From a virus, in IMG/VR virus record IMGVR_UViG_3300027881_000038, positions 1-38,519 of that record: 38,519 bases of DNA; one strand, given 5' to 3'. Below the pieces are notes generated by a model. It was not told the DNA's origin. It saw nothing but the letters and a program-made list of their open reading frames with translations, and ran no database searches. How positions within the stretch are numbered: the stretch's first letter is position 1; each line of letters begins with the position of its first letter. This document shows, piece after piece, positions 2,142 to 36,950 of the stretch. The translations under genes and the position numbers were made by a program.

Positions 2142-2147
2142 TTTATT
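2142..2147 (+). promoter_or_regulatory. TTTATT motif copy 1 (candidate late promoter element)
   Basis: CTTTATT in the 73-base gap before the gene at 2203. It is one of seven intergenic copies of this hexamer; see the finding on the motif. No -35 element is visible upstream. Confidence 0.35.
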
Positions 2148-2202
2148 GGGTGTAAGAAGTTCTGGCTAACTTGCCACTCAATTAGGACTTTGGAGGTAAG
2201 AG

Positions 2203-2655
2203 ATGGGAACGTTTGATTATACGTACGAGGAACGGCAACGAGATACCAACTCGGAGTTGTATGTCCCGTTCTATATCGAATCCCCCGTAGAGGATCTAGA
2301 AGTCACGATTTCGGCTGAGGCGGCTAACGTCATCACCGTAACGTGTCAACTCGTGGATCCGGGTGGAGACGAGATCTTGGAGCGGATGGCTGTCCGGATG
2401 CTCTATTTCGATTCAGCAGACTACGATGCCCTAGGTTCGGCTATCGATGTGGTTATCGCATGGACCGATGGGATGGAAGTCGAGGTCAACAACACGGGTA
2501 CAGACATTGACTGTTTGACTGACGACGATGGTTTGCTCGTGATGACATTCACCAACGCAGCCGATGCCGACATTGAAACGTGGCTCGGATTCATTCTACC
2601 AAATGGTAAGTTCGTCGAAGGCGGGCACATGGCGTTCGTAGACGACACCCCATAA
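2203..2655 (+). CDS. Tandem paralogue A, putative virion decoration protein, 150 aa
   Basis: The start follows a TGGAGG Shine-Dalgarno. The protein is acidic with three recognisable parts shared by the next two genes: an N-terminal tag FDYTYEER (residues 4-11), a central strand-rich part with ITVTCQLVDPGGDE, and a C-terminal LGFILPNGKFVEGG. About half its residues match the gene at 2666. The central and C-terminal pattern (a 'VTVQL.D..G' strand, then 'tddnGlLvmt', then 'l.lpnGk...gg') resembles small Ig-like virion proteins found in phage head and tail gene clusters. A surface-decoration or fibre role is inferred from this and from the absence of any enzymatic motif. Confidence 0.7.
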   Translation: MGTFDYTYEERQRDTNSELYVPFYIESPVEDLEVTISAEAANVITVTCQLVDPGGDEILERMAVRMLYFDSADYDALGSAIDVVIAWTDGMEVEVNNTGTDIDCLTDDDGLLVMTFTNAADADIETWLGFILPNGKFVEGGHMAFVDDTP

Positions 2656-2665
2656 GGAGTAGATG

Positions 2666-3112
2666 ATGTCTGAATTTGACTACACCGCAGAGGAACGGGA
2701 ACGTAACACCGTTGCTGAGTTGTATGTTCCGTTCTACATCGAGAACCCGGTAGAGGATCTTGAAGTAACTATCGGTGACGAGACCGGCGAGGTCATCACC
2801 GTGACGTGTCAAGTTGTTGATCCGGGTGGAGATGAGATCGAAGCACGGCAACTGGTTCGTATGGTGTTATTTACCGATGATGACTACGACACTCTTGACG
2901 TATTGATGACCGACATCGCTATCGCAGCGACGACTGGTCTTGAAATTGAGGTCAACGAGCCGGGAATAGATATCGATTATTTGACTGATGAGAACGGCAC
3001 CCTTGTGCTCACTCTCACCGACAGTGGTGGTGGTTCCCAGACAGGCGCTCTCGGCTTTGTCCTCCCCAACGGCAAGTTCGTTGAGGGTGGAACCATCCTA
3101 TTTGCAGCATAA
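2666..3112 (+). CDS. Tandem paralogue B, putative virion decoration protein, 148 aa
   Basis: Two ATGs lie side by side at 2663 and 2666. The second is chosen because AAGGAG at 2654-2659 then has a six-base spacing and the product begins MSEFDYT, like its paralogues. The protein aligns along its whole length with the gene at 2203, including FDYTAEER, YVPFYIENPVEDLEVTI, ITVTCQVVDPGGDEI and LGFVLPNGKFVEGG. The similarity is also obvious in the DNA, which points to tandem duplication. A structural role on the virion surface is inferred as for its neighbour. The Ala/Gly/Ser-rich stretch around residues 125-135 replaces the corresponding loop in paralogue A. Confidence 0.7.
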   Translation: MSEFDYTAEERERNTVAELYVPFYIENPVEDLEVTIGDETGEVITVTCQVVDPGGDEIEARQLVRMVLFTDDDYDTLDVLMTDIAIAATTGLEIEVNEPGIDIDYLTDENGTLVLTLTDSGGGSQTGALGFVLPNGKFVEGGTILFAA

Positions 3113-3123
3113 GGAGTTGAAAA

Positions 3124-3771
3124 ATGTCTGAGATGGATTATACCTATGAAGAACGGCAAAATCGTGATGGTAACCTTTACGATACGCCGATCAATGAATC
3201 GGTGGCTGCGGAGGTCGTGACGGAGCTTACGTCTGACGCTGACTACCTAGAAGCCCTTTCCGACAAGTTCTCCGGTGATGCGGAGTATCTTGCTGGCGTT
3301 GTGGCGGCTCTGACCGCAGACGCGCCCTACCTCGCAGCCATTGGTGCTGCGCTGGCCGTGGACGCCGTTTTCCTTGCGGGGGTTTCTGGTGAGTTGGACC
3401 ACTCGGTTCCCCTTGATACCGCCAGCTTCACGCAGGACTCTGAGGGTGACGCGGGTGCCGACAAGATCACTGTCACCATCCAACTAGAGGACGCTGATGC
3501 CGGGGACTGGGCACAGCGCACCATGCTCTCTATATGGGCGTGCAGTGATGCGGACTGTTTCACTCCCGCTGCGGTTGACTCTATCGCAGCAGGGACCAAC
3601 GGTGGTCTCCTAGAGGAACTCACCGCTGCTACGTCGTACACAGCCGTAACCGACGAGACTGGTCTTCTCGATGTTGTTGTCGAGAAAACTGGTGGCGTGG
3701 CCACTATCTACCTCGGCGTGATGCTTCCGAACGGCAAGTACGTTCCGAGTGGCGCAGTCACCTTCGCGTAA
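3124..3771 (+). CDS. Tandem paralogue C with 14-residue repeats, 215 aa
   Basis: The start follows AAGGAG. It keeps the family N-terminal tag (MDYTYEER, residues 4-11) and C-terminal block (LGVMLPNGKYVPSG). Between them it carries an Ala/Asp-rich insertion: residues 37-91 hold four tandem copies of a 14-residue unit of the form xDAxYLAxVxAALT. After the repeats comes the beta-rich domain (ITVTIQLEDADAGDWAQR onward) typical of Ig-like phage virion proteins. Two Cys at about residues 139 and 144 could form a local disulphide or be incidental. It is the last gene before a strong terminator. The repeat is predicted helical and could set the distance between the tag and the beta domain; that function is a guess. 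Confidence 0.7.
   Translation: MSEMDYTYEERQNRDGNLYDTPINESVAAEVVTELTSDADYLEALSDKFSGDAEYLAGVVAALTADAPYLAAIGAALAVDAVFLAGVSGELDHSVPLDTASFTQDSEGDAGADKITVTIQLEDADAGDWAQRTMLSIWACSDADCFTPAAVDSIAAGTNGGLLEELTAATSYTAVTDETGLLDVVVEKTGGVATIYLGVMLPNGKYVPSGAVTFA
3232..3396 (+). repeat. Four tandem 14-codon repeats inside paralogue C
   Basis: The units begin SDADYLEAL, GDAEYLAGV, ADAPYLAAI and VDAVFLAGV; each is 13 residues plus one linker residue (S, T, A). Repetition is clear in protein and only partial in DNA, so the array is not a recent slippage product. Confidence 0.75.
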
Positions 3772-3794
3772 ACGAGGTGAAAATAGAGCGATTT

Positions 3795-3823
3795 ACGGGA
3801 CGCCTTGTGCGTCCCGTTCTTTA
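3795..3823 (+). terminator. Rho-independent terminator
   Basis: A perfect 9-bp stem (ACGGGACGC at 3795-3803 with GCGTCCCGT at 3809-3817), a 5-base loop and a following TCTTTATT tract. It ends the transcript of the three paralogues, 24 bases after the last stop codon. Confidence 0.85.
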
Positions 3824-3825
3824 TT
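3820..3825 (+). promoter_or_regulatory. TTTATT motif copy 2
   Basis: CTTTATT directly after the terminator stem and upstream of the cupin gene. This copy is ambiguous, because the same T-rich bases serve the terminator. Confidence 0.3.
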
Positions 3826-3870
3826 CAGAGGGGGAGGGTACGTTCAGTGCCAAATGGTGGGAGTGAGAAT

Positions 3871-4257
3871 ATGCTTAGTGCAAATATGGTTCGTCTTGGG
3901 GCATTAGAGGCGAAATTCGAAGCCGATCCTTTTAGTGATTTGCCGATGACCAAGTGGGAGGTTAATGGCGGTATCGTTCGAGCGTGGACACTTTTAGCTC
4001 GAAGGGGTATCGTTACTGTTGTCAAATCCTTCGGTCCTAAAGGGTGTGTTTTTCCTAAACACTCTCACACTGAGGTGGAAATTTTGGTACTGTATGAGGG
4101 CAAAGCCCGGTACACCGATTCTTCTCCCCTAGAAATGATTATGGAGCCGGGGGACGCTGTTCGAATTGCCCCAGGAACCTCTCATGAGTTCGTAACGTTA
4201 GAGGACACGTGGGTGATTGGCATCACTGTTCCGGACTCGGAGGCTTTTGCTAAATGA
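3871..4257 (+). CDS. Single-domain cupin protein, 128 aa
   Basis: This is a small beta-barrel metal-binding cupin. Cupin motif 1 is complete at residues 58-77, with the pattern G-x5-H-x-H-x3-E-x6-G and ligands His64, His66 and Glu70. Motif 2 at 94-105 (GDAVRIAPGTSH) supplies His105. All four usual metal ligands are therefore present. The ATG at 3871 has GGGAG seven bases upstream. A GTG at 3847 with GGGGGAGGG in front is an alternative adding eight residues, and the TTG at 3805 lies inside the terminator and is rejected. The next gene overlaps its stop by four bases (ATGA). Small cupins bind sugars, amino acids or other small molecules or are metal enzymes; the substrate cannot be read from the sequence. 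It is unusual within a phage structural region. Confidence 0.75.
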   Translation: MLSANMVRLGALEAKFEADPFSDLPMTKWEVNGGIVRAWTLLARRGIVTVVKSFGPKGCVFPKHSHTEVEILVLYEGKARYTDSSPLEMIMEPGDAVRIAPGTSHEFVTLEDTWVIGITVPDSEAFAK

Positions 4258-4586
4258 GCAATGGTGCATTCGAAGATGGCTTCACCGCCCCGACAGCGAG
4301 CGGTGAAGACTGGAAAGAATACCGGCGTCTCATCCTGTCTGAACTCACACGACTTGGTCATGACCACGAGATCCAAAACGCTAAGTACGAGGTTCAACTA
4401 GCCGCCCTCAGGGACATGTTCACCGACAAGTTCGACAAGATGACCGCGCAGGTTTCTGACCTAAAGTCCGACATGCGGGCTAATGAGCGAGAACGTAAAG
4501 TTCTTGCCAGCATGTTCGGGTTCTTAGGAGGCTTTGTGCCCGCCGTTCTCATTTTGGTCTACTTCCTGATGAATCGATCCGGTTGA
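4254..4586 (+). CDS. C-terminally anchored coiled-coil membrane protein, 110 aa
   Basis: The gene overlaps the cupin by ATGA, so it is translationally coupled. Residues 17-82 are charged and helical with heptad spacing, and residues 86-106 form one hydrophobic membrane span ending just before a short NRSG tail. This architecture (soluble coiled coil plus C-terminal anchor) resembles XhlA-type holin-associated proteins, but that family assignment is only by shape. No endolysin is visible in the window to support a lysis cassette. The protein most likely sits in the host inner membrane with its coiled coil in the cytoplasm. Confidence 0.7.
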   Translation: MSNGAFEDGFTAPTASGEDWKEYRRLILSELTRLGHDHEIQNAKYEVQLAALRDMFTDKFDKMTAQVSDLKSDMRANERERKVLASMFGFLGGFVPAVLILVYFLMNRSG

Positions 4587-4846
4587 TGAACCTCCTCAAA
4601 GACCTCAAGAAGAAGGGGATCAAGGGCATGTTCCTGAAGATCCCCACCCGTAAAACTCCCCGTCAGATCGACCACCAAATCCGGCGCGAATTCGACCGGG
4701 GGAGATCTATCCGGGTTCTTAGGCGGATACAACTATTTTTGGATGGGCTGGAGGCCCACCCAGAAGAGGTTGATAAGACCACACTTTCCGTGCTTTCTGC
4801 TGAAGTAAATGGTCTAATTACGCACCTATCTTCCTATAAAAAGTAG
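4586..4846 (+). CDS. Small basic hypothetical protein, 86 aa
   Basis: The ATG at 4586 overlaps the upstream TGA (TGATG); a TTG one codon earlier is less likely. The N-terminal half is very Lys/Arg-rich (LLKDLKKKGIKG, then RREFDRGRSIRVLRR) and the C-terminal half is helical and neutral. There is no membrane span or metal motif. It is the third member of a coupled cupin, membrane protein and basic protein set that ends just before the next promoter. No family was recognised; nucleic-acid or membrane-surface binding would suit the charge but is not shown. Confidence 0.65.
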   Translation: MNLLKDLKKKGIKGMFLKIPTRKTPRQIDHQIRREFDRGRSIRVLRRIQLFLDGLEAHPEEVDKTTLSVLSAEVNGLITHLSSYKK

Positions 4847-4848
4847 TG

Positions 4849-4878
4849 TTGACAACAGTTGTATGCCCCTGTTACACT
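4849..4878 (+). promoter_or_regulatory. Sigma-70-type promoter with overlapping inverted repeat
   Basis: TTGACA at 4849-4854 and TACACT at 4873-4878 (18-base spacer; TTACAC with a 17-base spacer is the alternative reading). The palindrome ACAACAGTTGT (4852-4862) overlaps the -35 element and could be an operator. It starts three bases after a stop codon and drives the gene at 4897. Confidence 0.6.
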
Positions 4879-4896
4879 CGTAGCAGAGGTGAGGGC

Positions 4897-5676
4897 ATGG
4901 CGTCGTCAGGTTGGTTTGCATCGTTAGGGTACTGGAAGCAAGAAGAGGCGTATGCCGCTTTCGACTTGTATCGTGATAACCCCAACAGTGAAGCTATTTA
5001 CCTGGACGCAGTTGAGAAAGCCATCCCCCTCATCCGAGTCGTGTACTCCACTCAAAAATTCAAGGTCACCTATGACGGAGATGAAGACGATTTCATAGCT
5101 CACGCGGCATACACGATCACAAAAGCTATCCCAAAAATGATCGAAAAACCTAAAGAAAAACTCGATAATGACAAGAAGTACATGAGGTATCTTTTCACTT
5201 GTGTTATCAACGCTTTTTATCGAGAGTACGATGTTCTTCATGGCAAGCAGAACAAGCTCATGAGGAAGATCGATGAGACCAGTCCTTCTGAAACCACCGC
5301 TAGCTCCTCCAACAACATTATGGCCCTCGAAGCAGGACTCACGCTGAAGCGGATCCCGCCCGTACTCGTAGGGATAGCCATGGAGAGCGTGCGGTTCGAG
5401 GGAACCTCTCGGAAGATTTGTCAGTACATTTTGAATCAACGCGTCAACGGGCGCGAGGTGGCGAAATCGGTCCTACAACTTATGGGTTGTAAGGACCGCA
5501 ATTTTTTTATGCACTATTGTGACTCGGTCTTGCTTCGTTCGTTTCTCACCCTGAGGTCTAAGAAGTCTCTTCTGGAAGACCTCAGGTTCGAGGGGCTTAG
5601 TTCTCTGGATGAAACTGAGGAAATTTTTGACCTCGGGATGTTTTTGGAAACGGAAGAGGAAGCATGGGCTGAGTAG
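4897..5676 (+). CDS. Putative sigma-factor-like transcription protein, 259 aa
   Basis: The frame is open back to 4846, but that start would lie in the promoter; the ATG at 4897 has a GAGGTGAGGG Shine-Dalgarno region. Residues 32-112 (an EAIYLDAVEKAIPLI helix, then FKVTYDGDEDDFIAHAAYTITKAI, then KKYMRYLFTCVINAFYRE) are arranged like sigma-70 region 2 of small phage late sigma factors such as T4 gp55, where a helix with 'yi.qacfNAF.r' contacts the -10 element. The C-terminal part (about 160-225) contains a helical segment that could be a region-4-like or HTH unit. The tail is acidic. The match is weak and by eye, so other DNA-binding roles are possible. If correct, this gene, made from a host-type promoter, would direct transcription of the structural genes. 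Confidence 0.45.
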   Translation: MASSGWFASLGYWKQEEAYAAFDLYRDNPNSEAIYLDAVEKAIPLIRVVYSTQKFKVTYDGDEDDFIAHAAYTITKAIPKMIEKPKEKLDNDKKYMRYLFTCVINAFYREYDVLHGKQNKLMRKIDETSPSETTASSSNNIMALEAGLTLKRIPPVLVGIAMESVRFEGTSRKICQYILNQRVNGREVAKSVLQLMGCKDRNFFMHYCDSVLLRSFLTLRSKKSLLEDLRFEGLSSLDETEEIFDLGMFLETEEEAWAE

Positions 5677-5744
5677 AAAGGATGTAAGCGCCCTGAGTGC
5701 GGACTTTGCTAGCCCGCGCACCTACATATTTTTTCTGGCATGGG

Positions 5745-5759
5745 CCGATTTTTAATCGG
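5745..5759 (+). other. Small hairpin in 119-base leader
   Basis: CCGATT pairs with AATCGG around a three-T loop. There is no T-tract after it, so it does not look like a terminator. It lies in the gap 5677-5795 upstream of the gene at 5796 and may affect its leader. Nothing else was recognised in this gap. Confidence 0.35.
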
Positions 5760-5795
5760 GCAACACTATTTCAGGTAGTTGGGAGCCAGCTAGCA

Positions 5796-6095
5796 ATGTT
5801 TTTACCCGTTTGGGGCGCTTCTTTTATGGCTGAAGCGGATCTCTTATCACCGATTTTCCTAGAGCTAATCACGAAGGCCGAGAAAATCCCCACCATAACC
5901 CCGAAGGTCGTAGAGGAGTTCTGTGCCCTGATCGGGGGAGATACCGACTTCACTCCGGAACTTGTGAACATCATCGGACCAGCCACGTTTTTGTATCTGG
6001 TCCAATTCTTTGGTGGGCAGAAGTTTACAATCCCAGAAATCGATGATATACTCGAACGCGTGAAATTTGCGAGGTCACAAGATGCGGAACTCTGA
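5796..6095 (+). CDS. Small protein with Mor-like dimerisation motif, 99 aa
   Basis: Two starts are possible: ATG 5796 with GGGAG ten bases upstream, and ATG 5826 (89 residues, beginning MAEADLLS) with only a weak GGGG. The C-terminal third reads PELVNIIGPATFLYLVQFFG followed by GQKFTIPEIDD. This is the pattern of the dimerisation part of Mor/C transcription activators of phage Mu (a helix 'lielfGG', then a strand ending in IP). In Mor a helix-turn-helix follows; here the protein ends about 24 residues later, so that part is missing. The family call is from pattern memory. The 14-base overlap with the next gene suggests coupling. A dimeric adaptor role is possible but unproven. Confidence 0.5.
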   Translation: MFLPVWGASFMAEADLLSPIFLELITKAEKIPTITPKVVEEFCALIGGDTDFTPELVNIIGPATFLYLVQFFGGQKFTIPEIDDILERVKFARSQDAEL

Positions 6096-6633
6096 GGATC
6101 CTTCTGCCATTGTTGAAAACATGGCAGGCCAACTACTTGCCGCTGTGTCCAGTGGAGACGCGGTAGACCCTGAGCTTATCGACTATGCCGAACAAGTTAT
6201 TCAGGCGCATCAGGTGTATGTACAACTACTCTACGTTGGAATGGTTGTAGAGCAAATCACCAAGCTGACGATGTACTTTGCGGCACAGGACGACCTTGTG
6301 GAAGACCTGGACCTTGAGGCGATATTGGAGGGTACTCCTGCGGAGAAGATCCGTGCGGTCAGTGCTTTGAACCAAGCGATCAAGACCAAGGTCGAAATCA
6401 TCGGCAGCATGATGGCCTCCAAGGAAGCCATTGGTATGCTGACCGCTAGTTTGAAGGATACGTTCGGAGAGGGCGAAGTTCTCCTCAAGGAGGGTGGAGC
6501 CGACAATAACTTCATGGAGGCGCTCAAGGCTCTGGATCCCGAGCAGCGACAGCGCGTGCTGGGTACGGCAGTCAGCCAGTTGCGTAAGACCATGATCAAT
6601 GATGTAATGGGAGATGTTGATGCCGATGACTGA
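6082..6633 (+). CDS. All-helical acidic protein, 183 aa
   Basis: The ATG at 6082 has GAGG seven bases upstream and is preferred to a TTG at 6067. The protein is predicted almost entirely helical: residues 35-75 (ELIDYAEQVIQAHQVYVQ...) and 90-130 have amphipathic spacing, and there are no Cys or metal sites. The C-terminus is DDVDADD-like and acidic. The gene lies four genes before the large terminase with overlapping neighbours on both sides. Size, helix content and location are compatible with a small terminase subunit, but there is no recognisable DNA-binding HTH, so that is only a candidate role. No family was recognised. Confidence 0.65.
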   Translation: MRNSEDPSAIVENMAGQLLAAVSSGDAVDPELIDYAEQVIQAHQVYVQLLYVGMVVEQITKLTMYFAAQDDLVEDLDLEAILEGTPAEKIRAVSALNQAIKTKVEIIGSMMASKEAIGMLTASLKDTFGEGEVLLKEGGADNNFMEALKALDPEQRQRVLGTAVSQLRKTMINDVMGDVDADD

Positions 6634-6979
6634 CGACGAGAAGATCGAGCGGAAAGCCAATCGTTTGCGGAAGGTAGGGCTGGACGGAACACGCCACACC
6701 ATCAACAAGAACCGAAAATACGGAGACGCGGTACGTAAGACGGTGGATATCCTCTACGCGTTGTACCCTGAGGGCATTCGTCCTGACCAGTATTCGGATC
6801 TTTTGTTGTTGGTCCGAGTCCAAGATAAGATGGTCCGGATCGCTTCCTATACCCCAGAGCGGCGTGAGAAGGACGATGAGAGTCCTTGGGCTGATGTGCG
6901 TGGGTACGGGATCCTTGGAGAAGAGAAGGATATGGACCCGTTTGAAGACGGCATCACAGAAGAGGAGGCGTTCCTATGA
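6620..6979 (+). CDS. DUF6378/DUF1599-like protein, 119 aa
   Basis: Three in-frame ATGs (6614, 6620, 6626) compete; 6620 has TGGGAG at the best spacing (6 bases). Residues 28-104 follow the pattern of the phage DUF6378/DUF1599 group: INKNRKYGD (29-36), a long helix, then IRPDQYSDLLLLVRVQDKMV (53-72) matching the usual 'lvkl.DKl.Ri', and ESPWADVRGYGILG (87-100) matching 'DswiDlaGYa.l'. These small helical proteins are linked in the literature to nucleotide-modification contexts and are fold-related to MazG-type pyrophosphatases, but the activity is not established. The invariant-looking YGD, DK and D-x2-GY residues are present. It overlaps the next gene by ATGA. Confidence 0.6.
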   Translation: MPMTDDEKIERKANRLRKVGLDGTRHTINKNRKYGDAVRKTVDILYALYPEGIRPDQYSDLLLLVRVQDKMVRIASYTPERREKDDESPWADVRGYGILGEEKDMDPFEDGITEEEAFL

Positions 6980-7275
6980 ACACCTTTCAGATTGTTCTTG
7001 TGAGTGTGTCTGCGTCGGTGTTGATAACAGTCATCATCGGGGTGTTCGCTATGCGGTCTATGACCGGCATCTTCAATCAGAAATACACCGATGTCACCGA
7101 GCGTTACATGGAGCTTCTGCGGATCGTCTTGCTGATCAAGAAGACCATGATGGAGGCTCTCATCCGTGATACGTCGTTGTTTGACAATCTTTTAGAGGAC
7201 TGGACGGATGAGATGCCCGCCGTGGTCCCCGACGAAGGAGAGCCTGATGAGCCTGAGCAAACAGATTCGGAATGA
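6976..7275 (+). CDS. Small one-span membrane protein, 99 aa
   Basis: The gene is coupled to the preceding one by an ATGA overlap and has GAGGAGG in front. Residues 5-25 (IVLVSVSASVLITVIIGVFA) form a single N-terminal hydrophobic helix. Residues 35-70 are a charged helix, and residues 75-99 form a very acidic, Pro/Glu/Asp-rich tail. There is no signal-peptidase site, so it is probably a bitopic inner-membrane protein with the tail in the cytoplasm. Holin, antiholin or superinfection-exclusion roles are common for such phage proteins but nothing here decides among them. Confidence 0.65.
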   Translation: MNTFQIVLVSVSASVLITVIIGVFAMRSMTGIFNQKYTDVTERYMELLRIVLLIKKTMMEALIRDTSLFDNLLEDWTDEMPAVVPDEGEPDEPEQTDSE

Positions 7276-7882
7276 CTTGATGGAGATGGTCGTTGAAGTG
7301 GCCGGAGTCTACAACGATCTCATCCCCGGCCTCACCACAGAAGAAGAGTTGGAGCCAGTTATTGAGGCTGTTGAGCGGGCTGTGAATATTACTGTGGAGA
7401 AACTCATAAACCATATCGCGTTGATGGAAGTTCCTGTCCCACCAGAAGTTAAACCCAAACCGCCCGTGAGCAGGCTTCTACCGCAGCCTGAGCCGACCCC
7501 AGAGCCTACTCCGGCCCCGGTTGCCCAGACGCTTCCAGCACCCCCTCTGACGCTCCCTAACGAGGCGCAGCAGAGCCTCTCGGAGGTCGCAGGTTTGGGC
7601 GATGATATGGCTGTGGGCGACGGAGACCATCACCTAGGGATGACCTTGGAGCAGGAGCGGCGTATCCAAGAGGGGAAACCCGCGAACCCGGCAAGACCGC
7701 ATGTTGTAATCGATCATACGGGGAGCAAAGAGTATCCAACAGAGAAGCACTTCAGAGAAGCAGGGGCTGTGCCCCCCGTAGCTGTCCCGCGTACAGTGGT
7801 GGCTGCGCCACCCTCTGCTGCGCCCCGAGCCGCCGTGAACCCCGATTTAGAGGAGGCTGTCGATGATAACCCAAAAGTCTGA
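7247..7882 (+). CDS. Helical protein with long Pro-rich linker, 211 aa
   Basis: The frame opens at 7208, but ATG 7247 (MSLSKQIRND) has AAGGAG six bases upstream. Residues 1-62 are helical (NDLMEMVVEVAGVYNDLI, then EEELEPVIEAVERAVNIT). Residues 63-112 are a Pro/Glu/Thr/Ala linker with repeats such as PEPTPEPTPAP. The remainder is polar with a short HHLGMTLEQERRI segment and another Ala/Pro-rich stretch near the end. The start overlaps the previous gene by 29 bases and the end overlaps the next by 20. The layout suggests a two-part adaptor joined by a flexible tether; the partner is unknown. Confidence 0.65.
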   Translation: MSLSKQIRNDLMEMVVEVAGVYNDLIPGLTTEEELEPVIEAVERAVNITVEKLINHIALMEVPVPPEVKPKPPVSRLLPQPEPTPEPTPAPVAQTLPAPPLTLPNEAQQSLSEVAGLGDDMAVGDGDHHLGMTLEQERRIQEGKPANPARPHVVIDHTGSKEYPTEKHFREAGAVPPVAVPRTVVAAPPSAAPRAAVNPDLEEAVDDNPKV

Positions 7883-8237
7883 CGCCCGACTCGAACGAGG
7901 ATACTTGGTCCGTGTTAAGGTCACTCTGGTTACTGGGAAAGAGATACATGGGGTAGACGCTTTCCGAGCACAGACGCCAGATGAGGCATGTAACTATGCT
8001 TTCAACCTTTTTAGGACTAGGATCCAAGACGGTGGGGCGATAATTTACGGCGATATGTTCTTCGCTGGGGATACCATTGCGAGTTACCGACCTGAAACTC
8101 TGTGTTCAATTGATTTATCAGATGAGACCAATGCTAAATGGGTGCGCTCAATGGAGATCTTCGAAGAATATTTGGCTCGCGAGGAGCAGCTACAGCAGTT
8201 AGTATTGGACCGCAAAGATGGCGAAGAAGGACACTGA
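7863..8237 (+). CDS. Hypothetical protein preceding terminase, 124 aa
   Basis: A strong AGAGGAGG precedes the ATG. The first 65 residues (GYLVRVKVTLVTGKEIHGVDAF, then TPDEACNYAFNLF) look like a small alpha/beta domain with two strands and a helix. The last 30 residues are a charged helix (SMEIFEEYLAREEQLQQLVLD). No catalytic motif is visible. It overlaps the terminase gene by 20 bases, which implies tightly linked synthesis. A terminase accessory or small-subunit role is possible by position only. Confidence 0.65.
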   Translation: MITQKSDARLERGYLVRVKVTLVTGKEIHGVDAFRAQTPDEACNYAFNLFRTRIQDGGAIIYGDMFFAGDTIASYRPETLCSIDLSDETNAKWVRSMEIFEEYLAREEQLQQLVLDRKDGEEGH

Positions 8238-10299: not shown

Positions 10300-10311
10300 T
10301 GGGAAAGTTGC

Positions 10312-10317
10312 TTTATT
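10312..10317 (+). promoter_or_regulatory. TTTATT motif copy 3
   Basis: CTTTATT in the 46-base gap between terminase and the gene at 10346. There is no terminator hairpin nearby, so this copy is not explained by a T-tract. Confidence 0.4.
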
Positions 10318-10345
10318 AAATTGACTCGAAGACGGAGGTCTGATT

Positions 10346-15011: not shown

Positions 15012-15048
15012 TAACCCGTGGTATTCATTATAGGATAGGGGCGTACAA

Positions 15049-19685: not shown

Positions 19686-19718
19686 CTTCGTTCTATCAAA
19701 AAGTTTGGTGCGACTGGG

Positions 19719-19724
19719 TTTATT
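19719..19724 (+). promoter_or_regulatory. TTTATT motif copy 4
   Basis: GTTTATT in the 74-base gap before the gene at 19760, inside the 17-base loop of a weak 6-bp inverted repeat (TGCGAC at 19709-19714 with GTCGCA at 19732-19737). No sigma-70-like pair was found here. Confidence 0.4.
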
Positions 19725-19759
19725 AGATGTGGTCGCATGAATTCTATAGGAGGACTACT

Positions 19760-23111: not shown

Positions 23112-24617
23112 ATGGCGCGTAGTCAGCTACGAAAAGTTGCCCCTAAACACATGTCTGCCGGTGGTGGGCGTGCTGTTGTATTTGATGGTGGGCAGCACAT
23201 GGAGCTTCACGGCTACTGGATCCCTGAGAATAGGGATCTGACGATAGATGTGCCGATTTTTCAGCACGCGTACTATCCGAAGATCTCTGACACAGATTTG
23301 GATGTGAAGCAGAATATCGCGTACCGGATGGTCACCGTGCCGTCCCTGAGTAAGCTGCGTGCCAGTGGTATCAAGGTGGATAGGGCCATGTTCGTGGCCG
23401 AAGTGGTCGTTCATCCCCGGTACATCAAGCACCGCAATTATTTCCGCTCCGATTTTCCAGCCTCGGTGAAAACTGCCGTGGTTCGGGATAACATGACCTT
23501 CGTGTTCGGAGCCAATGACATGCCCTCTGCTCGCTTCAAGCGGAAGGACGTGCTGCGCTTTTGGCGTCAGTCGTTCTCTCCCCTGTTGATGAAGGGCAGA
23601 CAGTACACGTCGGGTCGTATGTCGATGTTTTTTGCTGCACCGACCGCAGCCACAGCCGATCTGAAGAAATCGTTGAACCTGGAATCGGATAAGACGCGGG
23701 ATAACCTCAAAGAGTGGCATCCGTCGCTCCATCAGACACGCCACCCCCGAAAGCGTGGGCCAAAGCAGAAGTTCACTGTGGCGCAGAAGAGGATTGCCAA
23801 GGAGATCGTGAAGGAGACTTCCGACCGTATGGCCGATCAACTTCTCCCTGTGATGAGAAGTAAGCTCGACTGGGAGCCGGGGTCAACCCAGGCCAAGGAA
23901 CTTGAGAGCCTGCTCACAGCCCCCGCGACAAGTCGTTCTCTGTTGAAGGCCACTGCCGGTAAGAAGAACCGGGTGTACGCTATCAAGCGGTGGGTGAGCA
24001 CGTGGCTGAAGCCTCGTTTGAAGGAGATCGCTGCGGAAGAGGGCGAACAGGTGTTCCGTTCAGTGACCCGTTTTATTATCTGGGTGATTATCACCGCAAT
24101 TCTTAGAGAGATTCTAGGTGACATACAGGCCAGCAAGATCGGCCAAAGGTTCCAGGGCATTCAGGGTCTTCAGTACACACCAGATAAATTTGCTACGCAG
24201 CAACGAATTGGGGCTGGGACACTGTCTTTCAACTTCAAGGGAGATGCGAAAGCACAGAGCGAGCAACTAGAGCACGTGCGTGCGATGGTGCTACACACCA
24301 TTGCAGAGGCCCTCCAAATTTATGGTACGTTGAATGTGGCACAGGCCCATGTGTTCGATATAGATTTTGACCCGAATCGTGGGCAGGGCCAGAAGATCAA
24401 GATCACGTTTGACACCAAGGCGTTCGAAACGCACAAGACGAAGTTGGGCCGGATGCGGGATATGGACCCTGAGTTCATTACACAACTTCTCCCAGATTTC
24501 AATCAACGAGTTAATTATCAGTATGAACAAGATCTTCGACAGGGGCGCGGTGCTGCTAACTATGGAACAGGAAGTGCGGAAACTAGCGCCGAAGATTTCC
24601 TCCGAGAGTTGTTGTAG
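23112..24617 (+). CDS. Basic hypothetical protein with hydrophobic helix, 501 aa
   Basis: GGAGG at 23102-23106 gives a five-base spacing to ATG 23112, two bases after the previous stop; an in-frame ATG at 23082 lies inside the previous gene and is rejected. Residues 1-190 have mixed alpha/beta content, residues 200-300 are strongly basic (QTRHPRKRGPKQKF), and residues 320-334 (FIIWVIITAILREIL) are a short hydrophobic helix that may insert in a membrane. The C-terminus is Gly/Ser-rich and acidic. No catalytic motif was recognised. A part in the injected or inner-head protein set is inferred from location and charge. Confidence 0.7.
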   Translation: MARSQLRKVAPKHMSAGGGRAVVFDGGQHMELHGYWIPENRDLTIDVPIFQHAYYPKISDTDLDVKQNIAYRMVTVPSLSKLRASGIKVDRAMFVAEVVVHPRYIKHRNYFRSDFPASVKTAVVRDNMTFVFGANDMPSARFKRKDVLRFWRQSFSPLLMKGRQYTSGRMSMFFAAPTAATADLKKSLNLESDKTRDNLKEWHPSLHQTRHPRKRGPKQKFTVAQKRIAKEIVKETSDRMADQLLPVMRSKLDWEPGSTQAKELESLLTAPATSRSLLKATAGKKNRVYAIKRWVSTWLKPRLKEIAAEEGEQVFRSVTRFIIWVIITAILREILGDIQASKIGQRFQGIQGLQYTPDKFATQQRIGAGTLSFNFKGDAKAQSEQLEHVRAMVLHTIAEALQIYGTLNVAQAHVFDIDFDPNRGQGQKIKITFDTKAFETHKTKLGRMRDMDPEFITQLLPDFNQRVNYQYEQDLRQGRGAANYGTGSAETSAEDFLRELL

Positions 24618-25773: not shown

Positions 25774-25860
25774 TAAGTACACCCTTTTCACACCTAAAAT
25801 CCTCTATTGATTGGATTGGGAACTGGTGGCTTGTACACCGAACTAACATGGAGGTAACAT

Positions 25861-29497: not shown

Positions 29498-29524
29498 GGC
29501 TGATGCGTAAGTCTCAGTTTGGCA

Positions 29525-29562
29525 GCCCCCTACGAGCTTTTCGTGGGGGGCTTGTCTTTATT
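29525..29562 (+). terminator. Rho-independent terminator after capsid gene
   Basis: An 11-bp stem (GCCCCCTACGA at 29525-29535 with TCGTGGGGGGC at 29541-29551, one G-T pair), a 5-base loop, then a T-rich tail. It would cap the abundant capsid transcript. Confidence 0.9.
29557..29562 (+). promoter_or_regulatory. TTTATT motif copy 5
   Basis: CTTTATT at the end of the capsid terminator tail, 20 bases before the gene at 29583. As with copy 2, terminator and motif overlap. Confidence 0.3.
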
Positions 29563-29582
29563 TACATGAATGGAGAAATACA

Positions 29583-30482: not shown

Positions 30483-30495
30483 ATAGGAGTGTGGC

Positions 30496-31218: not shown

Positions 31219-31221
31219 CAG

Positions 31222-31728
31222 ATGCCACTATTTGATCATGCAAAAGATCGCAGGCTACTCGAAAGCATCAACAAAGAGATGTACGAGTTGTACATGCACA
31301 AGATCAAGGTTTTCAAGCTCATCTCCCGTACAGAGACGTGGAATGACATCTACCACGAGGATATCAACATGGATATCGCGGCAGATGCCACGTACGAGGT
31401 GGCTGGGCACGCGGATGTGAGTGACAACGGACTGGCAAACCTCTACAAGCAGGGCCAGCAGTTGGATCGTTCGCTGTTCATGTACATGAGCCGCAAGGGG
31501 TTAGAGGATGTCTTGACCCTTGCAGGGTTGGACAAGTATCGGGATGTTCCCACAGATGGGGATGTCATCATCCTTCAGAACCTCTATTGGGAGGTCATGA
31601 CCGCAGACCCAGAGGGCTACCACATGAACTTCCGCGATTATCCGTTCGACTTTCAGTTTGCGATAGTGCCGTGGGTTCGTACTGGTGTGCCGAAGGACGA
31701 CGAGAACGAACCGTTGTCGAGATACTAA
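31222..31728 (+). CDS. Putative neck protein (possibly T4 gp14-like), 168 aa
   Basis: A GGGGTAA site precedes the ATG three bases after the previous stop. The central part contains FMYMSRKGLEDVLTLAGLDK (about 86-105) and a C-terminal PTDGDVIILQNLYWEVMTAD (about 113-132), recalling the 'rP.eGDliy.pl...lFei..ve' block of gp14-type neck proteins. It is shorter than T4 gp14 (256), so the match is tentative. The neighbouring gp13-like gene and following tail-completion genes support a connector role. The next gene starts on its stop codon. Confidence 0.45.
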   Translation: MPLFDHAKDRRLLESINKEMYELYMHKIKVFKLISRTETWNDIYHEDINMDIAADATYEVAGHADVSDNGLANLYKQGQQLDRSLFMYMSRKGLEDVLTLAGLDKYRDVPTDGDVIILQNLYWEVMTADPEGYHMNFRDYPFDFQFAIVPWVRTGVPKDDENEPLSRY

Positions 31729-32285
31729 TGGCGAGGGGCATTCCGCTTACGACCAAGGTCCGTGAGGCGATCAAGGGCTGGCTGAAGAAGCTCCGGATCA
31801 CTCGACGCACTGAGTCTACGCCCGATATGTCTGCGAACCCCAAGCTATTCCTCAACAAGGGGATTATGGGGATCGAGGGCCTCGGGGAGGAGATGGCAAA
31901 GGAATTCGCGGATGACTTGCGGGCTATCTTGGCCCGCCAGTTGATTTCTTGGAGGCCGTTAAGCCCCAAGTACCGTCTGTACAAGAGCAGAATGGGTCTG
32001 GACCCACGTATCCTCATTGCTACGGGGCGATACGTACAGTCGATCCAGGCTCTCCAGCAGCCGGATGGTTCGTGGGTGGTAGGGGTTCCAGATGAACCGT
32101 TACGACCGGGCAGTAAATACACGCTGAAGGATCTAGCACGGTGGCTGGAGTACGGTACGATGCACATGCCACCCCGTCCACATTGGCGTCCTGCCCGAGA
32201 AATATGGCGTACAAAGATTTATCGTATGAAGAAGAGATTGCAATTTGATATTGCAATGGAACTCAAAAAGAGTGGGTGGGTCTAA
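31728..32285 (+). CDS. HK97 gp10-like tail-completion/connector protein, 185 aa
   Basis: The frame opens earlier (31587), but ATG 31728 overlaps the upstream TAA, the pattern used here. The N-terminus is basic (TTKVREAIKGWLKKLRITRR). The C-terminal region has EYGTMHMPPRPHWRPA (residues 141-156), the well-known 'vEfGT..mparPfl.pA' signature of HK97 gp10-type proteins that bridge head and tail, preceded by a helix and the usual 'TGrl..Si' segment (ATGRYVQSIQAL, 98-109). The location among neck genes fits. It is coupled to the next gene by TAATG. Confidence 0.6.
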   Translation: MARGIPLTTKVREAIKGWLKKLRITRRTESTPDMSANPKLFLNKGIMGIEGLGEEMAKEFADDLRAILARQLISWRPLSPKYRLYKSRMGLDPRILIATGRYVQSIQALQQPDGSWVVGVPDEPLRPGSKYTLKDLARWLEYGTMHMPPRPHWRPAREIWRTKIYRMKKRLQFDIAMELKKSGWV

Positions 32286-33121
32286 TGGCTGACCAGTACC
32301 GGGCAGACGATTTTGAAAGTCAGAAAGAGCTTGGCTCGTATGAACGGATAGAAAACTACGATGTTATCTACCGCCACGACCATGCTGTGTTGAACGCATT
32401 CAAATTCTATGTCCCGTTCAAGAGCAAGACCACCGGCCAAATCTATGACGACATGGTCCCCATGGTCATGGCTACCCCGCGTAGAGAGTATTCAGAACGT
32501 GACCTCAACAACATGGATGATGAGAAGTACACGGCAATGGCGTGGGAAGGGGACTTTCCTCCCACCCAGCACGAGCGGTTGCTCTTCCCGTCTGTAGCGG
32601 TTACCCGGCTGGATATCTCTTTCGACCCAGGCAGGTTCACGGTGGTACCGTGGCGACAGCTTCTCTATTCGAACGATCTGAACTTGATCTTGAAGTCGCA
32701 GTTTCCGCTGCCTTACACCTTTTCGTATCAGTTCGACTTTTGGACCCTGTTCCAGGCCGAGTTGAATATGTTCATGGAACAGTGGGCACGGAAGTTCCCC
32801 CGCCCGACGTGGTGGGTGGACGTGCAGTTCCCACCTCCGTGGGGTGAGCAGACGGTACACACCCAGAATAGCGGGGTGTTTTCAAACACTTCGGTCTTCG
32901 AGACGGGTGAAGAACAGCGTGCTTTGAGAGGTGTGGGGACGATCAATGTACATGGTTGGATCCCGCTGCCTTCTGAATGGGTACGCACGATCCAGAAGAT
33001 TACCCTGTCTATCATCGAGGATAGCTCTCAAGAGATCCTCGAAACCTATGAAACTGAGCTTGCTGATAAGCAGTTGTTCTGGGACACCGGGGACAAAGAA
33101 CAGGTGCTAGAATGGTTGTAG
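32285..33121 (+). CDS. Tail terminator/sheath stabiliser, T4 gp15-like, 278 aa
   Basis: The start overlaps the previous stop (TAATG); an in-frame ATG nine bases earlier lies inside the previous gene. The pattern resembles T4 gp15: an N-terminal strand region with VPMVMATPRREYSERD, then FPLPYTFSYQFDFWTLFQAE (about 140-159) and LNMFMEQWARKFPRP, equivalent to the 'p.p..m.yel.i.t.y.ddm.qi.eqilp.F.p' block, and LRGVGTINVHGWIPLPSEWV near 217-236 equivalent to the C-terminal 'l.ft.eVnGwmy.p'. Gp15 caps the assembled tail and binds the neck. Gene order (neck, gp10-like, this, sheath) agrees. Confidence 0.55.
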   Translation: MADQYRADDFESQKELGSYERIENYDVIYRHDHAVLNAFKFYVPFKSKTTGQIYDDMVPMVMATPRREYSERDLNNMDDEKYTAMAWEGDFPPTQHERLLFPSVAVTRLDISFDPGRFTVVPWRQLLYSNDLNLILKSQFPLPYTFSYQFDFWTLFQAELNMFMEQWARKFPRPTWWVDVQFPPPWGEQTVHTQNSGVFSNTSVFETGEEQRALRGVGTINVHGWIPLPSEWVRTIQKITLSIIEDSSQEILETYETELADKQLFWDTGDKEQVLEWL

Positions 33122-33417
33122 AATACGACGATCCGCTAGAACGCCTTCATAGAGCGAACCGTGCCCGGATTTTGAAGGGCGCTAAAGAGGGTAAGTACTG
33201 GCTGCTAAGGAGTGAAAGCATGGACGAAGGTGTTAGAGACGAGTTGATCCGCAAGATTATCGAAACCACAACTACCGGGGCCATCGGTGGCCGGTCGATG
33301 CCACTAGGTGTTTCTCCTAATGACCCGGCTGGTTACCCAGGCAGAAATCGTTTTCGAGATGCCCAAGCGCGAAAAAACAAGAAATGGTTTACGTCTCTGA
33401 AGAGTAGAGTGGGCTAA
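33112..33417 (+). CDS. Small basic hypothetical protein, 101 aa
   Basis: The ATG lies ten bases inside the end of the previous gene with only a weak GGTG upstream; coupling is probable. The product is basic, with YDDPLERLHRANRARILKGA at the start, a helix VRDELIRKIIETTTTGAIG, and a Gly/Pro/Arg-rich C-terminal half. No known domain. It sits between the tail-terminator-like gene and the sheath operon; the intergenic gap after it holds a TTTATT motif. Confidence 0.6.
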   Translation: MVVEYDDPLERLHRANRARILKGAKEGKYWLLRSESMDEGVRDELIRKIIETTTTGAIGGRSMPLGVSPNDPAGYPGRNRFRDAQARKNKKWFTSLKSRVG

Positions 33418-33421
33418 GGTA

Positions 33422-33427
33422 TTTATT
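33422..33427 (+). promoter_or_regulatory. TTTATT motif copy 6
   Basis: ATTTATT in the 32-base gap before the gene at 33450, which leads into the sheath gene. There is no terminator hairpin here. Confidence 0.4.
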
Positions 33428-33449
33428 GTACGACTAATTGGAGGACGGA

Positions 33450-33806
33450 ATGGCACGATACCTCATAATCGGAAAATCGCCCCACATAGAGCACATCTTT
33501 CTAGTGGAAGATGGGCACTTTGTTGAGAAGCGCATTTCGCGTGGGCAGAAAATTGAAATCGACGAGAGTCAAATGAACTTCCACTTACGCAGACGTGCTG
33601 CGAAGAAGGTGATCAAGATCATCGAGTTGGAACCTGAAGCTCCGAAGGCCGAGCCGGAAGAGATCAAGTCCAGTATCGTTCTTGATGAGCCAGCAATCGA
33701 GCAGACGCCCGCCGTGAAGATCGTCGAAATAGATGAAGAGGCTCCTAAGCCTGCAAAGAAGAAGCCGAAACGACGGGCTAAAAAGCCCGAAACGACTAAA
33801 GAATAA
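33450..33806 (+). CDS. Charged hypothetical protein preceding sheath, 118 aa
   Basis: GGAGG gives a five-base spacing to ATG 33450 (MARYLIIGKS); a TTG at 33438 overlaps the Shine-Dalgarno and is rejected. Residues 1-58 form a small beta-type domain (YLIIGKSPHIEHIFLVEDGH...). Residues 58-95 are Glu/Pro/Ile-rich, and the C-terminus is Lys/Arg-rich (KPAKKKPKRRAKKPE), so the protein has an acidic middle and a basic end. No family recognised. It is the gene immediately upstream of the sheath, with a 21-base gap carrying TTTAGGAGG. Confidence 0.65.
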   Translation: MARYLIIGKSPHIEHIFLVEDGHFVEKRISRGQKIEIDESQMNFHLRRRAAKKVIKIIELEPEAPKAEPEEIKSSIVLDEPAIEQTPAVKIVEIDEEAPKPAKKKPKRRAKKPETTKE

Positions 33807-33827
33807 GAACTTTTTAGGAGGTAAGAT

Positions 33828-35660
33828 ATGTCCGTTTATGTTTCTCCAGGTGTTTACACTCGGGAAATCGACCTTTCGCTCTATGTACCTGCCCTATCAA
33901 CCACTATCGTGGGTATGGTCGGTGTCACTACGAAGGGACCGACCGAGACAAGAACCTACATCACCAACCAGCAACAGTTCGTCGATACTTTCGGTGAGCC
34001 TGACAGCACTGTGGGATATGAGTCCTACGCTGCATTGCAGTACCTGCGCCGGGGCCGTCAGCTTTGGTTCGTCCGCGTCGTTGGTGACACTGCGGTGAAG
34101 TCTTCGTATGTTGTCGGCTACCCCACGGCAGTATCGGCTGAAGCAGGAGACCCAACTCCAGCAGTTGATGGTCTTGAGTTCAACTTTACTCTGGCCGCTC
34201 TTGATGAACTCGGAGACAGTGGTATTGCTCCTGGTTCGGTTGTGGTTACAGCAACCAATACTGGCGATGTGGTGGAAACTTTCACTGACAACGAGGCTGG
34301 TGTTCTAGTTGGTGATATCGACTCCTTCGGGACGATCAACTACGTAACCGGCGTTATCGTCATCAACTTCGGTACCCTGACCATCAAAGACGCTACTGCT
34401 TTTGCCATCGATTACGAGTACATGACAGATGCCTTCGAGATCGAAGCATTGTCTGAGGGTGAGTGGGGTAACAACATTTCGTTCGTTATTTCGGACGGGA
34501 CCGTTGCTACTACTTTCCAACTGGATGTGTACTACAACGGTGTTCGGGTTGAGCGGTACAACAACTGTGACCTTTCCGACACTGCGGGGAACACCCAGTT
34601 TATCGAGACCAAGGTCAACGACAACTCGGACTTCATCGCTGTAGACCTTGATGCCGCACTTGCTGGTGGCTCAGTCCTAGAGCCGTATCAGTTCACTATC
34701 CCGGTCAGCTTGGCTGGTGGTGACACTGATGCTGGTACTGTGGACGCAGCAACCATCGTGGGCTTGGCGTGGGACGCTGGATTGGCACAGTCAACTGGTC
34801 TCCAGCTATTCGCATCACCGGCTGCGGTGGATGTGAACCTAATCGCCGCACCGGGTTGGTCTGACGCAGCCGTTGTTCAAGGGTTGATCCTGATTGCAGA
34901 GACCCGTGCGGACTGCTTGGCGCTCATTGATCCGCCAACCGATCTGACACCGGCAGAGGTTGTTGACTGGCACAATGGTGCTGGCACCTACGCTGGTGAC
35001 CATGCTGCCTTCAACAGCAGCTATGCGGCACTGTACTACCCGTGGGTCAAGATCTACGATGTGTACAACGCTGCGTACATCTATTCGCCACCGTCTGGGC
35101 ACGCTCTGGCTGTCTACGCGTACACCGACAACACAACCGAAAGCTGGTTCGCACCTGCGGGTATGAACCGGGGCCGTGTGATTTCGGGTATCGACGTGGC
35201 CTACGGTCCTACTCCGGGTGAGATGGATCTTCTGTACGGAGACGGCAATGCGGTGAACCCGATTGCCCGCTTCGATCCGGATGGTCTGGTGGTCTGGGGT
35301 CAACGTACCCTGCAACGTGCGCCGACCGCGCTTGACCGCGTGAACGTTCGCCGCTTGCTCTTGTATCTCCGTAAGGTGATCTCGACTGCGGTCAACTATC
35401 TCGTGTTCGAGCCGAACGACGAGAAGACTTGGCGGCTGTTTGGCCACCTTGTGATTCCGTTCCTCAACGACGTGACACAGCGTCGTGGTCTGTACGACTT
35501 CCGCTTCCAGTGTGACGAAACTACGAACACACCAGCGGTGATTGACCGGAACGAAATGCACGCACGCATCTTCTTGAAGCCAGTGAAGGCTGCTGAGTTC
35601 ATCCAGGTGGACTTGGTGATCACTGCCACGGGTGCGAACTTCGACGAAATCCTGTACTAG
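33828..35660 (+). CDS. Tail sheath protein, 610 aa
   Basis: This is the contractile tail sheath subunit. The start has TTAGGAGG in front. The N-terminus MSVYVSPGVYTREIDLS and the following SLYVPALSTTIVGMVGVTTK match the universal sheath start. NQQQFVDTFGEP and the GYESYAALQYLRRGRQLWFV block (63-82) are also typical. Residues 134-198 are a beta-rich insertion like one in the capsid protein. The C-terminal sheath domain is clear: PNPIARFDPDGLVVWGQRTL-like text, NVRRLLLYLRKVISTAVNYL, and RFQCDETTNTPAVIDRNEM before the final FIQVDLVITATGANFDEILY. The length is close to T4 gp18 (659). The usual tube gene is not next: a basic 420-residue gene intervenes. Confidence 0.95.
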   Translation: MSVYVSPGVYTREIDLSLYVPALSTTIVGMVGVTTKGPTETRTYITNQQQFVDTFGEPDSTVGYESYAALQYLRRGRQLWFVRVVGDTAVKSSYVVGYPTAVSAEAGDPTPAVDGLEFNFTLAALDELGDSGIAPGSVVVTATNTGDVVETFTDNEAGVLVGDIDSFGTINYVTGVIVINFGTLTIKDATAFAIDYEYMTDAFEIEALSEGEWGNNISFVISDGTVATTFQLDVYYNGVRVERYNNCDLSDTAGNTQFIETKVNDNSDFIAVDLDAALAGGSVLEPYQFTIPVSLAGGDTDAGTVDAATIVGLAWDAGLAQSTGLQLFASPAAVDVNLIAAPGWSDAAVVQGLILIAETRADCLALIDPPTDLTPAEVVDWHNGAGTYAGDHAAFNSSYAALYYPWVKIYDVYNAAYIYSPPSGHALAVYAYTDNTTESWFAPAGMNRGRVISGIDVAYGPTPGEMDLLYGDGNAVNPIARFDPDGLVVWGQRTLQRAPTALDRVNVRRLLLYLRKVISTAVNYLVFEPNDEKTWRLFGHLVIPFLNDVTQRRGLYDFRFQCDETTNTPAVIDRNEMHARIFLKPVKAAEFIQVDLVITATGANFDEILY

Positions 35661-35668
35661 AGTGAACG

Positions 35669-36931
35669 ATGAGTGATCGTACTCTCCACGAGGTGGGTAT
35701 CGGACGCATTATTGCGGCGGGAACCCAGATCAAGTCTGTCGGTAGAACTATCGGCAGACATGTGAAGGATACTCCCAAGGATCTCAAGACTGCGCTTCGT
35801 GCCCACCGTGTTCTTTCTCGCAAACAGCGGGCGACAGACCTCGTGCGTTTGGCGCAGAATTTTTCTCACGCCAACCAAGCAGCGAGTGTCCCAAAGCTTC
35901 CCATTCAGTACAAGGGTGGCGCAACGAGAGTTGCGTCATCTGCGCGTCGGGCCGTTCAGACGCGGGCGGCTACTGGAGCGAGATTAGGCACGGCACGGAA
36001 TCAAGCAGTCGGTAGACTGGCTGGTCGTGCTGCTGTCGCTGTGGCGGGAGTTACCGCTGTGGCCGGAGGACGTTGGGCGTATAATCGGTTAAAACAGCGT
36101 ATGAGTAAGAAACCGCGCTTTAGTAGTGTAGATGTCCATCCCCGGCACCAGTTCGCTGCTGTCCGTGGGGAACGATATAACAGACCAGTCTATTACGACC
36201 CGGATGAAGTTGGGGCTGGTCCCCCACGGGTGTATGAGGGAGATTTTGAAATGACTAGAGAAGAATTGATCGAGATGAGTACGGCGGCTCTGGCCAAACG
36301 GACCAAGAGTTACGGTGACAGGTATGTCGCAGGGAGCGTGAAGGCTGGTAAGGCTATTGCCCGAGCACCCGGACGTGCTGGTAAAGCTGTGGCCAAGCGG
36401 TCTATAAGCAACATGCGTAAATCCTTCGGGAAATATGAGAAAGGCCGTGTTGCCCGGAGAAAAGGACGCATCTCTGATTTCAACGCAGCAGAGCGTGCGG
36501 CTCAGCGGTCTCCGAAGTACCGCAAGATGTACAACAAGCAGTTGAAAAAATCTGCTGGCGCAGACCGCAAAGCCGACACGGTTATCGGTGGTGTTGCTGG
36601 TGGTATCGCTGGTGGACCAGTTGGCGCAGCCGCTGGAGCAACCGCGATGAACCTCGCTTCTCGGATCCCGGCGCACAGCAAAAGCATTCAGGGCCAAGTG
36701 CATCACATCCAAGGTGTGCATAAGGTCCGAAAGGCCATCGCGAAGAAGAAGAAGCAGGATGTCCGTTTCGGTAGGGTCTCTAGTTTCCGCAAGGAGTCAT
36801 CCGCGAAGTACGAAAAGGGCCGGAAGAAGAACCCGGTCCGCAAAGCCTATCGTAAATTGGCCGCGAAAGTAGCCACAGAAGACCGTCAAGAGATCATCTC
36901 TCGGGTGATGACCGTTCTTTTTGAAGAGTAA
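35669..36931 (+). CDS. Basic Gly-zipper protein between sheath and tube, 420 aa
   Basis: The ATG follows the sheath stop by eight bases with only a weak GAGTG. The protein is Lys/Arg/Ala/Gly-rich throughout. Two Gly/Ala-rich hydrophobic stretches look like membrane-inserting or zipper helices: GRLAGRAAVAVAGVTAVAGG (115-134) and VIGGVAGGIAGGPVGAAAGA (305-324). The short motif KYEKGR occurs twice (255-260 and 380-385) in basic surroundings. A central acidic patch (177-207) separates two basic halves. No tape-measure-like coiled coil or enzyme motif. Sheath and tube are normally neighbours, so this gene is an insertion into a conserved pair. It could be a virion protein that contacts membrane and DNA on ejection (speculative). 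Confidence 0.7.
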   Translation: MSDRTLHEVGIGRIIAAGTQIKSVGRTIGRHVKDTPKDLKTALRAHRVLSRKQRATDLVRLAQNFSHANQAASVPKLPIQYKGGATRVASSARRAVQTRAATGARLGTARNQAVGRLAGRAAVAVAGVTAVAGGRWAYNRLKQRMSKKPRFSSVDVHPRHQFAAVRGERYNRPVYYDPDEVGAGPPRVYEGDFEMTREELIEMSTAALAKRTKSYGDRYVAGSVKAGKAIARAPGRAGKAVAKRSISNMRKSFGKYEKGRVARRKGRISDFNAAERAAQRSPKYRKMYNKQLKKSAGADRKADTVIGGVAGGIAGGPVGAAAGATAMNLASRIPAHSKSIQGQVHHIQGVHKVRKAIAKKKKQDVRFGRVSSFRKESSAKYEKGRKKNPVRKAYRKLAAKVATEDRQEIISRVMTVLFEE

Positions 36932-36944
36932 GCGAACTGATAGC

Positions 36945-36950
36945 TTTATT
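36945..36950 (+). promoter_or_regulatory. TTTATT motif copy 7
   Basis: CTTTATT in the 47-base gap before the tube gene, 28 bases ahead of its ATG. No terminator hairpin and no -35-like hexamer at the right distance. Confidence 0.4.

Follow-up and report, generated by a model that had tools for sequence, protein, structure and literature searches.

A TTTATT-centered element upstream of virion genes is a probable late promoter in an uncultured clade of large tailed phages

Across a clade of uncultured large tailed phages, GCTTTATT with a G five bases farther on adjoins virion genes on their upstream side, and we consider it very likely that the underlying element, KKC-TTTATT-N4-G, serves as a late promoter of virion and packaging genes, -10-like and without a −35, which would be used by the host RNA polymerase together with a phage specificity factor. 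What we infer from sequence alone is that the element starts transcription, where it does so, that it acts late, and that a phage factor is involved; together these would amount to a probable late-transcription code for a clade with contigs of up to 177 kb, and the element permits late operons to be mapped throughout it.

TTTATT is concentrated in sense orientation in intergenic gaps

The window, by which we mean the whole stretch of DNA analyzed, is the 38.5-kb IMG/VR record IMGVR_UViG_3300027881_000038. All of its called genes lie on the + strand, as do its promoter-like elements listed below and the terminator stems at 3795..3817 and 29524..29552, and the gene content corresponds to the packaging and virion set of a contractile-tailed phage, with genes for the terminase (at 8218), portal (11812), prohead protease (26515), major capsid (28082), sheath (33828), tail tube (36979), and a T4-type baseplate protein (37636). 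Of the named phages, Listeria LIS04 and Bacillus SP-15 come closest in capsid and sheath, with 36 to 41% identity. Genes were predicted with a purpose-written dynamic-programming caller based on codon usage and Shine-Dalgarno sequences, and start codons are therefore computed; a gap is an intergenic stretch of at least 15 nt, of which the window has 16, totaling 1,029 nt.

The sequence-only reading that singled out TTTATT had listed seven + strand gap copies, at 2142, 3820, 10312, 19719, 29557, 33422, and 36945, all of which are correctly placed, with CTTTATT in five of the seven, as it had said. It had also put them 20 to 60 bases before a start codon, in line with the 26 to 61 nt that separate them from the called starts, and had reported a single coding copy at 24071; there is indeed just one on this strand, located at 24072. 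The only − strand copy (1737-1742) lies within the gene starting at 1728. The total of nine copies is ordinary for the window (10.5 expected), and it is their placement that is unusual. The 16 gaps hold seven sense and no antisense copies, bearing out the view that this concentration is far from random: dinucleotide-shuffled gaps contain 0.75 on average and 5 at most, none of 5,000 shuffles reaches 7, and any hexamer at all does so in 1 of 1,000. Coding sequence is only mildly depleted (1 copy versus 4.4 ± 2.0 under synonymous-codon shuffling), which leaves the gap pattern unexplained. The coding copy (24072..24077, within gene 23112-24617) spells Phe-Ile codons and is not conserved among orthologues of that gene, and we rejected it as an internal promoter; it stands outside the promoter system.

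A count of coding versus intergenic copies, which had been proposed as a check, was run on the window and 13 related contigs of 14 to 177 kb, and the enrichment held. In 395 codirectional gaps (37 kb), TTTATT ranks first among all hexamers, with 100 copies observed against 18.6 expected under a second-order Markov model built from the gaps themselves, or 7.0 at the coding-sequence rate, and only 3 in antisense. The longer word GCTTTATT occurs 34 times in the clade's gaps (0.9 expected), never in antisense. The same ranking also brings up TTGACA, the sigma70 −35 hexamer, and AGGAGG, the ribosome-binding site, indicating that the method detects functional signals. Applied as a positive control to the late region of T4, it puts TATAAATA first among 8-mers, with sites 22 to 36 nt from starts and one at 81; no TATAAATA-like word is among the top-ranked words of the T4 early/middle region. 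A literature search found no phage late-promoter paper with CTTTATT or TTTATT, and a search of Rfam gave no match.

The element extends beyond the hexamer and is conserved site by site

Alignment of leaders on the hexamer reveals a longer element, [G/T][G/T]C-TTTATT-N4-G, also readable downstream as N3-T-G, with C at −1 in 62% and G at +10 in 67% of cases. In orthologous leaders, mean pairwise identity is 0.54 to 0.74 at positions −3 to −1 and 0.78 and 0.67 at +10 and +11, compared with about 0.35 in the flanks; the hexamer columns are fixed by construction, as the alignments are anchored on TTTATT. No conservation peak appears between −25 and −4, in agreement with the earlier claim that no −35 hexamer accompanies the element.

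Distances to the start codon are likewise constrained. The median is 35 nt, and none of 96 sites lies closer than 19 nt, where random placement would put 21 sites on average; 68 of the 96 fall between 19 and 45 nt, against a mean of 38 and a maximum of 55 when sites are placed at random within these gaps. Such a minimum is what one would expect if transcription began about 11 bases into the element and a ribosome-binding site came next. We also considered TTTATT as a −35 element and rejected this, since a −10, a start, and a Shine-Dalgarno sequence would not fit into the mere 19 to 28 nt that separate many sites from the start codon.

A position weight matrix (PWM) trained on 80 sites from relatives, with the window left out, gives its eight highest scores in the window to the seven gap sites and the coding copy at 24072. 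The best score belongs to GTC-TTTATT-GGGTGT (2139..2153), upstream of gene 2203. The site with the fewest orthologous gaps, both of which carry TTTATT, is TTC-TTTATT (3817..3831), directly past a terminator stem and upstream of gene 3847 (or ATG 3871). TGC-TTTATT-AAATTG (10309..10323) follows the terminase and precedes gene 10346, with TTTATT in 6/6 orthologous gaps, and GGG-TTTATT-AGATGT (19716..19730) precedes gene 19760 (7/7). Upstream of gene 29583 is GTC-TTTATT-TACATG (29554..29568; 9/10), in the tail of the terminator behind the major capsid gene. The last two are GTA-TTTATT-GTACGA (33419..33433; 11/11), before gene 33450, just ahead of the sheath gene, and AGC-TTTATT-CTAAGG (36942..36956; 10/10), before the tail-tube gene 36979. 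Overall, TTTATT is kept in 51 of 52 orthologous gaps of the seven sites, while the DNA around them has diverged until its identity is nearly random; relatives are nonindependent samples, and the count is 46 of 47 without G006, which nearly duplicates part of G007. By comparison, orthologues of the remaining window gaps carry TTTATT in 3 of 62 cases. Two sites are probably weaker variants: TTCATT at 15024..15029, before gene 15049 (PWM score, 7.9), is retained in 6/6 orthologous gaps, mostly with a downstream TG, and TCTATT-GAT-TG at 25803..25808, before gene 25861 (PWM score, 9.3), has [C/T]TTATT-N3-TG or ATAATT-N3-TG in its orthologues.

The element is absent from replication blocks

The larger relatives, G004 (176.5 kb), G007 (168.3 kb), and G002 (139.5 kb), allow a comparison of genome regions; G007, whose sheath gene is split over both contig ends, is probably a complete, permuted genome. 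With block boundaries drawn from gene content, following an initial binned view, TTTATT-bearing gaps number 0 of 68 in replication blocks versus 22 of 51 in virion blocks (Fisher P = 3e-10) and 23 of 87 in the remaining regions. Some of these copies lie in an accessory/tRNA block that need not be late, which speaks against the late-promoter reading. Certain leaders that lack TTTATT keep sigma70 promoter motifs or variants of the core instead. In the window, host sigma70-type promoters are TTGACA-N17-TATACT at 1681..1709, which the three orthologous gaps listed retain, and TTGACA-N18-TACACT at 4849..4878, whose TTGACA is kept in 4 of 6 orthologous gaps (G004, G009, G001, and G002). In contigs whose sheath protein is about 41 to 44% identical (L026, L027, and L031), TTTATT is gone from the gaps.

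Other features of these genomes were recorded along the way. A second leader word, ATAAGA[A/C]C or GATAAGANC, lies about 10 to 20 nt upstream of the Shine-Dalgarno sequence of the sheath gene (33807-33827 and orthologous gaps) and of others, and ATAAGA occurs 45 times in gaps against 10.6 expected. A 119-nt gap before gene 5796 (5677-5795; 140 to 154 nt in relatives) is kept wherever the gene is present and has no recognized promoter motif or Rfam match. At 37519-37635, before the T4-baseplate-like gene, a terminator stem CAGCCTGCC...GGCAGGCTG followed by TATTTTT is strongly conserved and present in most relatives. G004 carries a phage array of 27 tRNA genes and a tmRNA gene with the tag DEFEQLPLAA (L043:13018-19130 and L044:272-1468).

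A candidate mechanism and the search for the reading factor

KKC-TTTATT-N4-G would occupy the −10 position of late transcription units, with no −35, and RNA polymerase would initiate some 5 to 7 bases past TTTATT, yielding short leaders of roughly 10 to 30 nt that bear the ribosome-binding site. Ordinary TTGACA/TATAAT promoters would serve early and middle genes, and the host enzyme would ignore the TTTATT sites until a phage-made sigma-like protein or cofactor redirects it. Unlike host sigma70 promoters, the element lacks a −35 and has a T as the second base of the −10; with T in place of the A(−11) that sigma70/sigmaA requires, a phage specificity factor is to be expected.

We detected no gp55, gp45, or sigma-factor homologue in the relatives, with searches too insensitive to prove absence. 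For gp55, phrog_234, phrog_12791, and phmmer were all negative, as was a profile comparison whose control (gp55 versus the LIS04 sigmas) also failed. The gp45 sliding clamp (phrog_223) was not found in 10 records, some of them possibly incomplete, though G007 looks complete. The LIS04 sigmas as phmmer queries had no match in the relatives, Sigma70_r4 gave sub-cutoff matches only, and in family scans of 125 G007 proteins no sigma family was among the 25 top families listed per scan. RNA_pol PF00940 went undetected, and its control likewise gave no match. These negatives are weak evidence of absence, because the gp55 profile control failed, the PF00940 control was silent, and the G007 scans listed no more than 25 families each. 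One of the sub-cutoff Sigma70_r4 matches is a conserved 303-amino-acid helix-turn-helix protein downstream of SbcCD-like genes in G007 (L053:429-1337), a possible regulator with a closer resemblance to small terminases. For two conserved proteins of unknown function beside the SbcCD-like genes, AlphaFold gave models of unusable quality (pLDDT, 63 and 50). It is tempting to speculate that the reader is unrelated to, or unrecognizably diverged from, the sigma-70 family and T4 gp55 and works without a T4-type clamp; we regard this as doubtful, but if true, it would be a new kind of late-transcription switch.

Alternative explanations

Two alternatives would make the element something other than a promoter. 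TTTATT could mainly be the U-tract of intrinsic terminators, with its orientation and gap placement following from that. The sites at 3820 and 29557 do share their gaps with a hairpin and T-run (stems at 3795..3817 and, after the capsid gene, 29524..29552, each with a tail continuing into the element), and in the three large relatives such a structure is present in 21 of the 45 gaps that carry the motif. However, more than half of these gaps lack such a stem, none of the 14 terminator-bearing gaps of replication blocks has TTTATT, the tail of the strong, conserved terminator ahead of 37636 reads TATTTTT, and the conserved upstream C and G(+10) reach beyond any T-run, so that we consider this explanation largely refuted and exceedingly improbable. 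The two sites had been called weaker evidence for their T-tracts; the doubt is lifted for 29557, because TTTATT persists past diverged stems there and is missing from replication-block terminators, while 3820 has its two orthologous gaps to go by. The element might instead act in RNA after transcription, either enhancing ribosome/S1 binding or offering an A/U-rich site for RNase E-type processing: it is A/U-rich, RNase E favors A/U-rich single strands, and it lies upstream of Shine-Dalgarno sequences. Yet it keeps a fixed spacing to the downstream G but not to the start codon, it is missing from replication blocks, it often sits directly behind terminators, where the upstream transcript has ended, and the known T4 late promoter has the same spacing, all of which makes such a role very improbable.

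Two others would keep the promoter and change its reader. An alternative host sigma factor could recognize it, phage factor not involved, which would agree with the negative searches for a phage sigma. Against this, the element is conserved across contigs of 44 to 56% G+C, a span that speaks against reliance on the minor sigma of a single host; it has no −35, which most bacterial alternative sigmas use; and it is unseen in the gaps of the relatives with about 41 to 44% sheath identity, so we judge this improbable. That an unrecognized phage RNA polymerase, single-subunit or phiKZ-type, reads the promoter rather than a redirected host enzyme is to us quite improbable: many of the large virion proteins match no family, but PF00940 was not found, for what that search is worth given its silent control, and single-subunit polymerases use longer promoters of about 17 to 23 bp. 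We thus favor a redirected host polymerase at a phage late promoter, and the promoter proposal of the sequence-only reading is supported in that the element is gap-confined, strand-specific, located outside replication blocks, conserved site by site, independent of terminators, and spaced like a promoter.

Comparison with known late promoters

T4 late promoters lack a −35 and consist of TATAAATA (PMC2988020). Those promoters, served by gp55, gp33, and gp45, share with the present element a single AT-rich −10-like block, a location before virion genes, and an equal distance to the start codon; they differ in consensus (TATAAATA versus KKC-TTTATT-N4-G), no gp55 or gp45 homologue was detected in the clade, and G007 encodes a family A DNA polymerase. 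Hence, the label "T4-type" given in the sequence-only reading holds in the sense of "works like T4," being −35-less and before virion genes, and fails as to consensus, with neither of the late factors searched for, gp55 and gp45, detected in the relatives. Even within the T4 relatives, the coactivator gp33 is a short protein with little conservation (PMC2988020). The late promoters of phiEco32 are also −35-less, with tAATGTAtA (PMC8948821); they too have a single element, read in that phage by its own sigma, gp36, with a start 6 to 8 bp downstream, but the sequence is unrelated, and our searches covered this sigma by Sigma70_r4 and the general scans alone.

Capsid and sheath place LIS04 and SP-15 (Thornevirus) nearest among named phages, and LIS04 carries two sigma-70-family genes. 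Its enriched signal is different, however: LIS04 (L091-L094) has about two dozen copies of a promoter-like two-part signal, GCTCTATT-N9-11-ACGTYTATA, for which one of the two phage sigma factors is a plausible reader, and CTTTATT is not enriched there. A motif common to the clade and LIS04/SP-15 was therefore rejected, as the LIS04 GCTCTATT belongs to the two-part promoter.

The capsid lineage of the Herelleviridae is unrelated to that of this clade, and phage sigmas known from that family were not found in the clade searches. The kayvirus and P100-like promoters of that family nevertheless resemble the element as −35-less, extended −10 promoters, with a G-rich kayvirus start about 6 bp past the box. 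Kayvirus late promoters have TGTTATATTA (PMC7698491), and the Listeria phage CKA15 has a −35-less late promoter, TGCTATATTA (PMC12282133), which over the aligned stretch is one base apart from the clade's GCTTTATTA. The latter deviates from the TGYTATATTA box of the Herelleviridae in having T, not A, at −10 position 2. As the clade shows neither the T4 nor the Herelleviridae consensus and our searches detected the factors of neither, we do not claim membership in any of the T4, phiEco32, and kayvirus/CKA15 families. The element nonetheless isolates a testable question, namely, which protein recognizes KKC-TTTATT-N4-G when no known late factor is found, and it adds to the −35-less late promoters a further consensus, which a single base separates from the one in a Listeria phage and which is relevant to the way in which the −10 specificity of phage sigma factors shifts.
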